From the NCBI RefSeq assembly GCF_014652535.1, contig NZ_BMYZ01000001.1:1736001-1800000 (forward strand): a stretch of 64,000 nt of DNA, written 5' to 3'. Below are positions 51,615 to 63,461 of the stretch, piece after piece. This DNA is from Cellvibrio zantedeschiae (GTDB taxonomy: Bacteria; Pseudomonadota; Gammaproteobacteria; Pseudomonadales; Cellvibrionaceae). The notes below the pieces were generated by a model, which ran no database searches, was not told the DNA's origin, and was given only the letters and a program-made list of their open reading frames with translations. Numbering within the stretch: the first letter of the stretch is position 1; each line of letters opens with the position of its first letter. A program made the position numbers and the translations under genes.

Positions 51615-52823
51615 TCACCCGGCTTGCAACTCAGCTAGCTGCACTTCCGTAGGGTCTTCATAATCTCCCGCTCTTCCATAGCTATTGTCAGTTAACAAAC
51701 CATGGCGCTTCAACAGAGTGCGCATTACATTACGGGAAATTCCCAACAAGGCAGCACCATGAACTTGATTGGAACGTACATAAGCAAACGCCTGATGCAC
51801 AATTAAACTTTCCAAACGCTCAAAGTGCGGTCCATCGCCCTGCTCGGTAAATAACCTACGCAACTGTTGCGCAATAATTGCCAAGGGGTCATCTTGCGGA
51901 ACATTGGAAGACGAATGAATACTTTGTGGCACACCCGCTATGTGAGGCTTAGGGCGCGACTCTGGATAAGCTTGGGAACTGCGTGGCGCACCGGTTTCCC
52001 AACCACCGGTAACCTTCAAATGAGATGCATCAATCGTATCCGCACCGGCCACCAAAAGCGCAAAATGAACTACGTTTTCCAGCTCGCGAATATTGCCCGG
52101 CCAGGAATAATGCAACAATAAATCTACCGCCTCTGCCGAAAATTGCGGGCGTTGTTTATAGCCCATGCGTTGGCTATAGGTTTTCAAAAAATGTTCTGCG
52201 AGTGGCAATACATCACCCGGTCTGTCACGCAGTGGTGGAAGTTTAACGTGTGCAATATTAATTCTGTATAACAAATCACGGCGGAAATGCCCGGCAGAAA
52301 CCGCGTAATCCAAATCCACGTTGGTTGCTGCAACCAAACGCACGTCAACGGCAATAGATTTACGCGATCCGATACGTACTACTTCTTTTTCTTGCAGCAC
52401 GCGCAATAGTTTTACTTGCAACGGAAGAGGCAAATCGCCAATTTCATCTAAAAATAATGTGCCGCCATTAGCCGCTTCAAACCAACCTTCACGCTTGCCC
52501 GCAGCACCGGTGAATGATCCTGCCTCATGGCCAAAGAGTTCGCTTTCTGCCAGGTGATCGCTAATCGCTCCACAGTTCACTGCAAGGAAAGGCCCCTTTC
52601 TACCGCTCAACAAATGGATATGGCGAGCAACCAATTCTTTACCCGTGCCTGTTTCACCGCCGATTAATACAGGCGCTTCACTGGGTGAAATTCGTTCAAT
52701 ATATTCTAACAACTCTGCTGAAATTGGATCAGAGAAAACCAACGCCTTAGCGCGTACAGATAAGGGTTGGGCATTACCACCTTCCAGAGAAAGCACAACG
52801 GGTTCTTTAGATGAGTCGCTCAC
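51615..52823 (-). CDS. sigma-54 enhancer-binding protein without sensor domain (SfnR-like)
   Basis: 402 aa activator of sigma-54 RNA polymerase. Walker A GETGTGKE at 56-63, a GAFTGA loop in the GSFTGA form at 102-107, Walker B GGTLFLDEIGD near 120-130, LLYRIN and WPGNIRELENV, and a C-terminal Fis-type helix-turn-helix (GAALLGISRNVMRTLLKRHGL). Only about 30 residues precede the AAA+ domain, so there is no receiver or GAF sensor, as in SfnR. The GTG start (52823) has GAGG seven bases upstream. Downstream of sbp on the same strand; sulfur control is inference from that neighbour. Confidence 0.9.
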   Translation of the reverse strand: MSDSSKEPVVLSLEGGNAQPLSVRAKALVFSDPISAELLEYIERISPSEAPVLIGGETGTGKELVARHIHLLSGRKGPFLAVNCGAISDHLAESELFGHEAGSFTGAAGKREGWFEAANGGTLFLDEIGDLPLPLQVKLLRVLQEKEVVRIGSRKSIAVDVRLVAATNVDLDYAVSAGHFRRDLLYRINIAHVKLPPLRDRPGDVLPLAEHFLKTYSQRMGYKQRPQFSAEAVDLLLHYSWPGNIRELENVVHFALLVAGADTIDASHLKVTGGWETGAPRSSQAYPESRPKPHIAGVPQSIHSSSNVPQDDPLAIIAQQLRRLFTEQGDGPHFERLESLIVHQAFAYVRSNQVHGAALLGISRNVMRTLLKRHGLLTDNSYGRAGDYEDPTEVQLAELQAG

Positions 52824-53020
52824 GATGTGACCTCAGATTTATTTTGCAGTGAATACAAATTGCCATAAGGCTCAATATGTGACGCATTGTAAAAGTTAAA
52901 TTCGAAAATCATAAGGAATTTATAAATCTAAAGTTATAACTAAAAAATAAATATTCAGACGACAAACGAGTTAATGAAAACCAACAAAATTCGCGAATAG
53001 AAAATTGCCTTTTCCATAAA

Positions 53021-53047
53021 ACAACACCTGCACATGGCAGGTGTTGT
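53021..53047 (-). terminator. terminator after sbp
   Basis: ACAACACCTGC, 5-base loop, GCAGGTGTTGT: an 11-bp perfect stem with a moderate T tract on the minus strand. It separates sbp from the sigma-54 regulator gene. Confidence 0.75.
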
Positions 53048-53074
53048 CCGGGTTTTATCGACTTAGCGTAAAAA

Positions 53075-54073
53075 TTACTTAACGTAAATTTTATCGAAAA
53101 TGCCACCATCGCCGAAGTGTTCTGGCTGCGCCTTACCCCAACCACCAAAATCATCGATAGTAACGAATGCGAGTTTCGGGAAGTTTTTGGCATAAGTCGC
53201 TGCAACTTGTGCATCACGTGGACGGTAGTAGTTCTTGGCAGCAATTTCCTGGCCTTCTTTGCTGTAGAGGTAGCTCAAGTATGCTTGAGCTACAGCAGTG
53301 TTGCCTTTTGCTTCAGCATTTTTATCCACTACTGCAACAGACGGCTCAGCAAGAACGGAGATTGATGGAACAACGATATCAAATTTGTCTGCACCGAATT
53401 CTTTCAATGCCAAATGAGCTTCGTTTTCCCATGCCAAAAGCACATCACCTACACCGCGCTGTGCGAAGGTAGTGGTTGAGCCACGAGCACCGGAATCCAG
53501 CACAGGAACGTTTTTATACAACTTCGCAACGAAATCTTGTGCTGCTTGATCAGAACCTAATTTCTTTCTCGCGTAGCCCCAAGCTGCCAAATAATTCCAG
53601 CGTGCGCCGCCAGAAGTTTTTGGGTTTGGAGTAATGACTTCAACACCAGGCTTAATTAAATCATCCCAGTCTTTGATTTTTTTCGGGTTGCCTTTTTTCA
53701 CCAGGAACACAATAGTAGAGGTGTATGGAGCACTGTTGTTAGGTAAGCGGGTAATCCAGTTATCTGCTAATAACTTCCCTTTTTTTGCCAAGGCATCTAC
53801 GTCTGCAGCCAAAGCCAAAGTGGCTACGTCAGCTTGCAGACCATCAATTACTGCACGTGATTGACTGCCAGAGCCACCATGAGATTGCTCAACCTTAACA
53901 ACATCACCCGTTTTTTCTTTCCAGTATTTAGCGAAAGCGGTGTTGTACTCTACATAGAGTTCACGGGTTGGATCGTAAGATGCATTTAACAAGGTAATAT
54001 CTTTTGCAAAAGCAGTAGATGAAATTAATAGGGTTGCCGCAAAGAGCGCAGCGTGTTTGGTAAACAGCTTCAT
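53075..54073 (-). CDS. sbp: sulfate-binding periplasmic protein
   Basis: 332 aa periplasmic receptor for the CysTWA sulfate/thiosulfate importer. Signal peptide cleaved after [48 protein letters not shown] and [16 protein letters not shown]-type motifs match Sbp/CysP. The ATG at 54073 has GAGGAA upstream. No cysT, cysW or cysA lies beside it, so it works with a transporter encoded elsewhere. A sigma-54-like promoter lies about 64 bases upstream of the start. Confidence 0.95.
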
Positions 54074-54146
54074 AAATTTTCCTCAGACAAAACAGATAAG
54101 GGTTAAAGCGAACAAAAAATTTAACCTTGTTGCTTGATGATACTTA

Positions 54147-54162
54147 TGCCATATCTATGCCA
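54147..54162 (-). promoter_or_regulatory. candidate sigma-54 promoter of sbp
   Basis: On the minus strand TGGCATAGATATGGCA: GG and GC at the exact -24/-12 spacing and 10 of 12 informative consensus positions (TGGCACR-N4-TTGCW). Predicted start about 54137, giving a 64-base leader before sbp. Confidence 0.55.
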
Positions 54163-54416
54163 GCGAAGATGTTTTTTTAGATGAGTTAAGTGAAACAAAA
54201 TTAAAATAGTTATAAGGAAGAAAATTTAATCGGAATGAAAAATTAGTGTAATAAAGATTTAATATTGGCTAAGGTTTCTCTTGGATATCTAGAAGAAATG
54301 ATAAAAAATATGGCGCCCGATTTTAATAAGCTTTCATAAACATAGATTGCGCCAGTACAAAAAAGTATCTGCAGAAGTAACAAGCCGCTAAAAAATCCTG
54401 TTTATATTTGCACACG

Positions 54417-54432
54417 TGTTGAATTTCAAACA
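54417..54432. repeat. TGTTGAATT inverted repeat, sbp upstream copy 1
   Basis: TGTTGAATTTCAAACA contains TTGAA-T-TTCAA, a perfect inverted repeat. It lies about 270 bases upstream of the sbp -24 element. Proposed enhancer site for the adjacent sigma-54 activator. Confidence 0.45.
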
Positions 54433-54450
54433 AACACCACCAATCAGCCC

Positions 54451-54466
54451 TGTTGAATTCTGTACA
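54451..54466. repeat. TGTTGAATT repeat, sbp upstream copy 2
   Basis: TGTTGAATTCTGTACA shares the first nine bases with copy 1 but is less symmetrical. Its centre is 34 bases from that of copy 1, roughly three helical turns. Confidence 0.35.
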
Positions 54467-56821: not shown

Positions 56822-56837
56822 TGTTGAATAATTAACA
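56822..56837. repeat. TGTTGAAT inverted repeat, TonB receptor copy 1
   Basis: TGTTGAATAATTAACA; arms TGTT and AACA pair with further partial pairs inside. It matches the copies upstream of sbp over TGTTGAAT and ends in ACA. Confidence 0.4.
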
Positions 56838-56875: not shown

Positions 56876-56891
56876 TGTTGAATTTCCAACA
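56876..56891. repeat. TGTTGAAT inverted repeat, TonB receptor copy 2
   Basis: TGTTGAATTTCCAACA, arms TGTTG and CAACA. Differs from sbp copy 1 at a single base. Its centre is 54 bases from that of copy 1 and about 140 bases upstream of the -24 element at 57024. Confidence 0.45.
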
Positions 56892-57023: not shown

Positions 57024-57039
57024 TGGCACACTTATTGAG
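57024..57039 (+). promoter_or_regulatory. candidate sigma-54 promoter of the plus-strand TonB receptor
   Basis: TGGCACACTTATTGAG: a perfect -24 box and TTG at the right spacing, but the -12 GC reads GA. 10 of 12 informative positions agree. Predicted start about 57049, a 40-base leader. Confidence 0.45.
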
Positions 57040-57089: not shown

Positions 57090-59738
57090 ATGAGTATTTC
57101 GCGTTATCCCCGTTTGCTGAATGTGCAGCAAGCATCCACCAACGCAGCGAGAACCACGCAGCCGTTTACACGCAAGTTTATTGCTACCGCAATAAGTTTT
57201 GTTATTGGTGCCTCTTTAACATCGTTCAATGTTTATGCCGCAGATGAAGCAACAGATAAGGACAAGCAACAGCAAAAAAGTAAAGCTGTTAAATTGGAAA
57301 CTGTAGTAGTAACTTCGCGTAACCGTGCTGAAGCGGCGCAAGAAGTTCCTCTGCCCGTTCGTGTAATTGGTGGTGAACGCCTTGACCGCGATGACATTAA
57401 ATCTGTGTGGGATTTACCATCAGTTGCACCAAACTTGCAGCTCAACAACCCTGGCGAAAACGCACGTAAAGTGAGCCCCGGCATCCGTGGCTTGGGTCGT
57501 GGTGGCGCTAACGATTCTATGGAGCAAAGCGTAGGAACAATCGTTGACGGCGTAACTCTTTATTACTCAGGCCAAGCCTGGGCAGATTATGTTGACCTCG
57601 ATCGCATTGAAGTTTTGTACGGCCCGCAAGGCACATTAGTGGGTAAAAATACTTCTTTGGGTGCAATTAAAATTGCAACCAAAGCACCTAGCTTTAAACC
57701 CTCATCAAAATTTGAAGTGACCACTGGTGAACTCAATACTTTGCAAGGCAAATTTTCTACTACCGGCCCTTTAATTGATGATTTGCTGGCGTACCGCGGC
57801 ACCTTTCTGGTAACTCGCAAAGATGGTCTTTACGACAATACTTATTTAAATTTTGGAAAGTCGCGCGAAACCTGGCGTGAAGAGAACAAAGTTGCAGGCC
57901 GTATACAATTTTTATTGACGCCTAACGAAGATTTCACCGGGCGTTTTATTTTCGACAAATTACGTTCAGATGAGCGTGTAAATACCGGTAACGTACTGGC
58001 TTCCAATGGCCCGGACATTTTTGCTGATGGAACTGCACGCCCTCTTACTACACCGATTACTGCCAACACGGGTTATACACCTTCAGGCCAATACTCTAGC
58101 GTAGGTTACCTGGGTAAATTTGCTGAGCGCTCAGCCTGGTTCCATAACGCAGACGGTACTGTTTATCAACCGCCAGTTGGCACTACCGATATTGAAAACT
58201 CACAAGCACGTCCGCAATTAACTAATCAACACGGTGCTTCAGCACAGTTTGACTGGCATGTGGCAAACCATACCTTTACATCAATTACTGCATATCGCTA
58301 TCAAGATTTTGATATTAAAAACGGCGGTCAATTCGGTAAGTTTTATGTGAGCAACAGCGGCCAGCAATTGTGGAACGATCAGTTCTCGCAAGAGTTGCGT
58401 GTAGCCTCAGATACTGCTGAGAAAAAAGCATTCGATTATCAAGCGGGTATTTATTATTTGGATGCTGAAGTTTACAGCGATGACCCAAGTTTCTATGGGC
58501 CAGATGCTGGTGCATGGAATGCGAGAGCAGCTCAGTACACGACTTTAGTTGCGAACACGACTCCATCATTGCGTGCAGCTGGTCGTGAATTGTTGCGCGC
58601 ATCTTTAGACGGTGTTTATCAATCTTCAGCAACTGATGCAACCGTACAAAGTTTGGCGGCTTATGCACAAGCTGACTGGCACATTTCTGACAAAGCAACC
58701 TTGTCGTTTGGTGTTCGTGATACCGAAGAAAGTAAACAAAATAAAATTGCTACACAAATTGATCGCCCCGGTGAAGACCTTGATGCACTCGGCGCTTTAT
58801 ATGGAGCAACTGCGGCACAAATTAAAGCAGCAAAAGATATTCGTTTAGCCTCTGTACCCATTCCAAACGGATTTGATTTTGTGAAAGCTAATGATATTGA
58901 TGCAAATCTCGTCGCGTGGAATATCAGCCCAAGCTACAAATTAAGTGAAGACGTGAATTTATACGCTTCTGTTGGTAGAGGTGTTAAATCGGGTTTCATT
59001 TATTTCCAACAATATGTTGCGCCCACTGATGCAGGTTTCGTGTCTTACATCAAGCCAGAAAAAGTGTTGGACTATGAGTTGGGAATTAAAAGTTTATTGC
59101 TAGGCCGCACTTTGCAATTGAACGTTAATTTGTACAACACGGAAGTAACTGACTACCAGGCTTCATGGCGTCGTGACGATCCAAATTCAACCGTAACTGG
59201 CCAAACCATTAGTGGCTGGGGTAACGCGCCTAAAGTGGTCGCGCGTGGTATTGAGTTGGAATCTAATTACCGTTTCAATCAAGAGCTTGATTTCAATTTG
59301 GCCGCTGCTTACAACAAAGCAACTTATGAAGCTGAGTGGTTGGTGCAAACACCTGAACTGTTAGCAACCAATAAATATTTTGATGCTAAAGGTCAACAGA
59401 TTGCCAACGTTCCTAAAGTTGTCATCAACTACGGTTTAAATTACCAAACTCCAGTTGCTGGTTATCTTGGTCGTATCACTTTGCAAAACACTTATCGTTC
59501 AAGCTCTTACTTCAACGATAACCATGCAGATTTTACGCGTCAGGATGCATACAACGTAACAAACTTAAGTTTGGCGATTGGCTCCTTAAACAAAAAATGG
59601 GAAGCACAGTTGAATATCCGCAACTTGTTGGATACCGACTACGCCACATCCAAGAGTACTTATTCGGCAACTGCTGGACAAACTCTCAACATAGGTGCAC
59701 CGCGTTACACCAGCGTAACACTTAAATACAACTTGTAA
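57090..59738 (+). CDS. TonB-dependent receptor
   Basis: 882 aa outer-membrane receptor. An extended signal region (cleavage near FNVYAA) is followed by the TonB box LETVVVTSRN, a plug (GGERLDRDDIKSVWDLPSVAPNLQL, GIRGLGRGGANDSMEQ, DRIEVLYGPQGTLVGKN) and a beta-barrel ending RYTSVTLKYNL. The ATG at 57090 has GGAG nine bases upstream. It leads the block with the GlcG-like protein, DsbD-like transporter and redoxin, all plus strand. Its ligand is unknown. Confidence 0.9.
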   Translation: MSISRYPRLLNVQQASTNAARTTQPFTRKFIATAISFVIGASLTSFNVYAADEATDKDKQQQKSKAVKLETVVVTSRNRAEAAQEVPLPVRVIGGERLDRDDIKSVWDLPSVAPNLQLNNPGENARKVSPGIRGLGRGGANDSMEQSVGTIVDGVTLYYSGQAWADYVDLDRIEVLYGPQGTLVGKNTSLGAIKIATKAPSFKPSSKFEVTTGELNTLQGKFSTTGPLIDDLLAYRGTFLVTRKDGLYDNTYLNFGKSRETWREENKVAGRIQFLLTPNEDFTGRFIFDKLRSDERVNTGNVLASNGPDIFADGTARPLTTPITANTGYTPSGQYSSVGYLGKFAERSAWFHNADGTVYQPPVGTTDIENSQARPQLTNQHGASAQFDWHVANHTFTSITAYRYQDFDIKNGGQFGKFYVSNSGQQLWNDQFSQELRVASDTAEKKAFDYQAGIYYLDAEVYSDDPSFYGPDAGAWNARAAQYTTLVANTTPSLRAAGRELLRASLDGVYQSSATDATVQSLAAYAQADWHISDKATLSFGVRDTEESKQNKIATQIDRPGEDLDALGALYGATAAQIKAAKDIRLASVPIPNGFDFVKANDIDANLVAWNISPSYKLSEDVNLYASVGRGVKSGFIYFQQYVAPTDAGFVSYIKPEKVLDYELGIKSLLLGRTLQLNVNLYNTEVTDYQASWRRDDPNSTVTGQTISGWGNAPKVVARGIELESNYRFNQELDFNLAAAYNKATYEAEWLVQTPELLATNKYFDAKGQQIANVPKVVINYGLNYQTPVAGYLGRITLQNTYRSSSYFNDNHADFTRQDAYNVTNLSLAIGSLNKKWEAQLNIRNLLDTDYATSKSTYSATAGQTLNIGAPRYTSVTLKYNL

Positions 59739-63445: not shown

Positions 63446-63461
63446 TGGCGCGATACCTGCA
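63446..63461 (+). promoter_or_regulatory. candidate sigma-54 promoter of the SMP-30-like gene
   Basis: TGGCGCGATACCTGCA: GG and GC at exact -24/-12 spacing, 10 of 12 informative positions. Predicted start about 63472, a 71-base leader before the ATG at 63543. Confidence 0.5.

Follow-up and report, generated by a model that had tools for sequence, protein, structure and literature searches.

The window, a 64,000-nucleotide stretch of the Cellvibrio zantedeschiae genome, carries on its minus strand a gene for a sulfate ABC transporter substrate-binding protein, here called sbp1 (53075..54073; 332 aa), which scores 524 bits against NF008022 (PRK10752; cut-off 288) and 343 bits against the CysP model, and so belongs to the same receptor family (PRK10752/Sbp) as the CysB-controlled sbp/cysTWA systems of enterobacteria and Pseudomonas. 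The next gene on that strand (51615..52823) encodes a 402-aa SfnR-type protein that the initial annotation had described, correctly, as a sensorless sigma-54 activator: its AAA+ domain (PF00158) begins at residue 31 and is followed by a C-terminal helix-turn-helix, and a domain search found no sensor domain. Between the two genes lies a stable hairpin followed by TTTT (53012..53052, minus strand; fold -21.0 kcal/mol), a likely terminator that is missing from the output of the automatic scan, and which suggests that the activator gene is not simply co-transcribed with sbp1.

Upstream of sbp1 lies a predicted sigma-54 -24/-12 promoter (54147..54162, minus strand). The plus strand here reads TGCCATATCTATGCCA and the minus strand, from 54162 to 54147, reads TGGCATAGATATGGCA, with GG-N10-GC exact as initially reported; the site agrees with the consensus TGGCAYRNNNNYTGCW at 15 of 16 positions, the sole departure being a G where the consensus has T at -14. 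The site is separated from the sbp1 start codon by 73 nt. The ATG lies at 54073 and, with the W of the consensus counted as -11, transcription would start at about 54136, giving a predicted leader of about 63 nt (54074..54136, minus strand) that carries the ribosome-binding sequence GAGGAAAATTT before the ATG; the length by this count is about 63 rather than the 64 bases initially given.

On consensus alone, TGGCATAGATATGGCA is unremarkable. Allowing up to one mismatch, no other match to TGGCAYRNNNNYTGCW lies near sbp1, but the whole window holds five such matches against 6.6 expected, and the genome holds 259 against 135 for a reversed-pattern control, so that about half of the one-mismatch matches are due to chance and the genome-wide scan, which had been put forward as a check, cannot single out this site. 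Sites with a base other than T at -14 number 23 in the genome, compared with 11 in the control, again a chance share of about one half. The consensus scan was accordingly dropped as sole proof. The pattern itself is nonetheless meaningful in this genome, since perfect sites (14, versus two in the reversed-pattern control) precede genes among which, by eye, are ones resembling those for nitrate assimilation, flagella and amino-acid transport, and 11 of the 14 fall in no long reading frame and have an ORF beginning 29-150 nt further on. An rpoN gene is present (PF04552, 234 bits, C1:510277-510750).

What carries the case beyond chance is conservation within the genus, for which we sampled 21 genomes containing ten sbp1 orthologues. 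Each of the ten sbp1 leaders has a 15/16 site at a corresponding position and in the same orientation, and none of the 20 leaders of paralogous or other sbp-family genes has one, the chance rate of such a site being about 0.01 per 330-nt leader. Both the GG-N10-GC spacing and the G at -14 are constant across the ten; the latter, a point against the promoter reading, may weaken or tighten the promoter. In the leader alignment the site forms the one clearly conserved block between otherwise diverged flanks, and in the six more distant leaders the site and the 16-mers overlapping it are the best conserved of the 16-mers of the window leader (13-14 identities, median 10.2). Substitutions within it are limited to positions 6 (C/T), 7 (A/G), 8 (A/G), 11 (A/C) and 16 (A/T), every one of which is degenerate in the consensus (6 Y, 7 R, 8 and 11 N, 16 W), and all the letters found are allowed. 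That the 16-mer arose by chance, or is the non-functional remnant of a decayed site, is a reading which the high background of one-mismatch matches would favour, but retention in ten of ten orthologous leaders despite diverged flanks, together with the pairing of the site with enhancer-like sites (below), leaves it scarcely credible.

The same 16-mer could alternatively be the operator of a dimeric regulator, with sbp1 transcribed from a sigma-70 promoter and controlled by CysB, the arrangement known from enterobacteria and Pseudomonas. The window copy is indeed a near-perfect dyad, TGGCATA-GA-TATGGCA (or a direct repeat of TGGCA), the near-palindrome is found across the window clade, and CysB controls cysAWT and related genes in P. 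aeruginosa (PMC12581299). However, six sister genomes with TGGCACAGATCTGGCT-like sites keep GG-N10-GC while losing the outer dyad, and five of the six have also lost the TGGCA repeat, a pattern that argues against a dimeric operator. Nor is there a sigma-70-like hexamer pair between the site and sbp1; the nearest lies well upstream (54326-54298), in a region whose matches are below chance. Moreover, the leaders of the paralogous sbp2-cysTWA operon, which would be the natural candidates for CysB control, lack the sigma-54 site. The dimeric-operator reading was rejected on the substitution patterns in the sister leaders, and we consider this alternative as a whole highly improbable.

A second line of evidence is the palindrome TGTT-N8-AACA, which emerged from a count of dyads in the 330 bp preceding each of 33 sulfur-linked sigma-54 sites. 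It is present in 19 of these 33 promoters, which include related ones and so are not 33 independent cases, whereas shuffled sets contain it 0.56 times on average and three times at most; the most frequent dyad in the shuffled sets, whatever its sequence, reaches 7-11. The palindromes are often tandem, about 31-34 bp apart, and tandem copies lie 252-304 bp upstream of the sbp1 site in the window, all on the minus strand: an exact copy, TGTTTGAAATTCAACA (54417..54432), has its start 270 bp before the sigma-54 site, a second, TGTACAGAATTCAACA (54451..54466), has one mismatch and lies 34 bp further upstream, and a possible third, TGTGCAAATATAAACA (54399..54414), also has one mismatch. In the close relative G012 there is only a near-match enhancer before sbp1. 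Genome-wide, the AT-centred exact palindrome shows no excess (16 versus 16 in the control), but five of these 16 copies cluster around the activator gene in a stretch of 19.4 kb (p about 1.5e-5). Apart from the perfect sigma-54 site of tonB-exbBD, the perfect sites, 13 in number, have no exact palindrome within 330 bp, and neither have the 22 other sites of the -14 class. The published SfnR target sfnG provides a comparison: in four of four related genomes a sigma-54 site stands before it (two with 16/16 and two with 15/16 matches), and in all four an exact TGTT-N8-AACA lies 88-170 bp upstream of that site, so that the exact palindrome is common to the upstream regions of sfnG and of sbp1 in the window. 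On the strength of this co-distribution, TGTT-N8-AACA looks like the enhancer of the activator; it may already be described, the SfnR literature having been covered in part. In possessing a conserved sigma-54 promoter and enhancer-like sites, sbp1 differs from the CysB-controlled sbp/cysTWA systems, and also from its own paralogue in the sbp2-cysTWA operon, which has neither.

In a phylogenetic tree, the window activator and its orthologues group with the SfnR proteins linked to msuEDC or sfnG (clade support 100/100), and 11 other activators fall outside this clade. The window activator is about 52% identical to msuEDC-linked SfnR, and their recognition helices are near-identical (NQVHtAnLLGlSRNVtRT in the window activator, NQVHgAaLLGiSRNVmRT in SfnR); the Pseudomonas relative at 52% identity closes an operon that, by eye, resembles msuE-msuD-msuC. 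Going by the titles of published work, SfnR itself is regulated by CysB and activates sfnFG and sfnA in a sigma-54-dependent manner (Endoh 2003, 2005; Habe 2007, as cited in PMC8234197). The window activator is not encoded with msuEDC or sfnEC, the neighbours in this group of orthologues being sbp, cysTWA or an ssu-like cluster, and SfnG was not found in the window genome at the cut-off used; we therefore call it SfnR-like, not SfnR itself. Its loop reads GSFTGA, a variant of GAFTGA; most of the genus shares GSFTGA, and four genomes (G003, G010, G015 and G017) have GAFTGA. An order-wide search with an E-value limit of 1e-110 recovered the activator, at this score cut, in its own genus and one other. 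G012 also encodes a diverged activator paralogue (53%) that lacks the GAFTGA loop and is preceded by TGGCACAGATATGGCA (L124:7528-7543), with the same -14 G variant as the sbp1 site. In Undibacterium pigrum an activator of the SfnR clade adjoins dienelactone hydrolase, peroxiredoxin-like and cytochrome-like genes, neighbours that resemble the genes after the TonB-receptor cluster of the window; this likeness hints at an older shared module.

Gene neighbourhoods link the activator to sulfur uptake. Within the genus, sbp1 occurs in 10 of 14 activator-bearing genomes and in none of the seven without the activator. In the window clade it lies directly before the activator gene, whereas in five sister genomes the order on one strand is sbp1 - porin - porin - sbp2 - cysT - cysW - cysA - activator. 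The initial description of sbp1 as an orphan is accordingly apt for its immediate surroundings, but the window genome has a second sbp gene with cysTWA (sbp2-cysTWA) on another contig, C3, and beyond the window the term fails, since sister genomes have the permease cluster bordered by sbp1 on one side and the activator gene on the other. In three other genomes the activator gene lies inside a sulfonate cluster dense in perfect sigma-54 sites, which encodes (family assignments having been made on one of the three, L117) SsuA-family binding proteins, an SsuC-type permease, alkanesulfonate monooxygenase-type enzymes, TonB-ExbB-ExbD and a TonB receptor.

These associations bear on whether the neighbouring protein is the one that acts at TGGCATAGATATGGCA. 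The promoter could be a true sigma-54 promoter activated by another enhancer-binding protein, the SfnR-like neighbour acting elsewhere: a first look at the genome gives about 14 candidate sigma-54 activators, and the hairpin after sbp1 suggests that the activator gene is a separate unit. The orthologue is nevertheless kept beside or within the sulfate cluster, sbp1 is found only in genomes having the activator, the palindrome is shared with sfnG, whose activator is SfnR, and the recognition helix matches; we think it unlikely that another protein serves this promoter.

Further candidate members of the regulon lie nearby. Between two divergent TonB-receptor genes are two exact enhancer-like sites on the plus strand, TGTTGAATAATTAACA (56822..56837) and TGTTGAATTTCCAACA (56876..56891), followed by an atypical sigma-54-like site, TGGCACACTTATTGAG (57024..57039, plus strand), before the TonB receptor at 57090, in which the -12 GC reads GA; this departure, at a position otherwise essential, is conserved as ...ATATTGAG in two sister genomes. 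The TonB-dependent receptor gene downstream of these sites (57090..59738, plus strand) is a probable regulon member. Close to the end of the window, a 15/16 sigma-54-like site, TGGCGCGATACCTGCA (63446..63461, plus strand), precedes an SMP-30/gluconolactonase-type gene; near-match enhancers lie upstream of it, and similar sites occupy the same place in two sister genomes. The stretch that begins at position 63446 and runs some 10 kb beyond the window (G000:C1:1799446-1809907) holds four further sigma-54-like sites, each with at least two exact or near-match palindromes upstream; they precede an SMP-30-type gene, a gene that looks rhodanese-like by eye but has no Pfam hit, a TonB-receptor gene and a DUF6152 operon, and the stretch is a probable sigma-54 island. 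Elsewhere in the window genome a tonB-exbBD operon has a perfect sigma-54 site, TGGCATAGATGCTGCA (G000:C1:1236043-1236058), and an exact palindrome. The predicted regulon thus comprises sbp1, this tonB-exbBD operon, the TonB receptors at window position 57090 and at C1:1804367, and the operon following C1:1809892. A tonB-exbB copy is found in 13 of the 14 activator-bearing genomes and in one of the seven without the activator; G019, which lacks the activator, retains a tonB-exbB promoter with sigma-54 site and palindrome, and this counts against the tie between enhancer and activator. None of the enhancers, the relationship to SfnR or the wider regulon had been noticed in the initial annotation.

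Taken together, three independent lines—conservation of the 16-mer, the upstream palindrome, and an adjacent activator that groups with SfnR and is linked to sulfur genes—support the sigma-54 promoter first proposed for sbp1, and we hypothesize, from comparative sequence evidence, that TGGCATAGATATGGCA is very probably a genuine promoter and part of a regulon for sulfur starvation under the control of the SfnR-type activator encoded next to sbp1. Under low sulfate or cysteine the sensorless activator would accumulate, its amount presumably being set through CysB as for SfnR in Pseudomonas; it would then bind the TGTT-N8-AACA sites that lie in tandem 250-300 bp ahead of sbp1, and DNA looping with ATP hydrolysis would open sigma-54 RNA polymerase at TGGCATAGATATGGCA, giving a transcript with the leader of about 63 nt. 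Sbp1 would in turn hand sulfate to the CysTWA permease, whose genes lie at another place in the genome.

Such a system resembles the Pseudomonas SfnR regulon (sfnFG, sfnAB) in its sensorless activator of the SfnR clade, its sigma-54 promoters, its sulfur-scavenging setting, and the presence of TGTT-N8-AACA upstream of sfnG as well. Unlike that regulon, it would extend to genes for a sulfate-binding protein, for TonB-ExbBD and for TonB receptors, the activator is found beside sbp or sulfate-permease genes instead of with msuEDC or sfnEC, and sfnG did not appear in the window genome at the cut-off applied. An association between sigma-54 and an sbp gene has some precedent: in nodules formed by Paraburkholderia phymatum, the sbp-type gene Bphy_1629 and cysW were lower in an rpoN mutant (-1.7), alongside lowered sulfonate-uptake and alkanesulfonate monooxygenase genes (PMC5979394). 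That result lowers the surprise of a sigma-54-linked sbp; it is a transcriptome comparison made in symbiosis, and in the passages covered here the genes to which an RpoN site is assigned do not include sbp. In the part of the SfnR literature that we covered, no sbp gene is described as a direct target of SfnR.

More broadly, it seems somewhat likely that SfnR-type activators, via TGTT-N8-AACA, govern sulfur scavenging across the genus, including a dedicated sulfate receptor, a TonB-ExbBD energiser likewise dedicated to it, TonB receptors and periplasmic enzymes, with sulfate uptake split between a sigma-54-dependent sbp1 and a differently controlled sbp2-cysTWA. Sigma-54 and SfnR are known for the use of organosulfur compounds; if the proposed regulon is real, direct control would extend to the sulfate receptor, TonB energy coupling and TonB receptors, and one switch would also serve inorganic sulfate and outer-membrane uptake in sulfur starvation. 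The enhancer motif would then make the regulon predictable from sequence, and would offer a concrete DNA target for proteins of the SfnR family.
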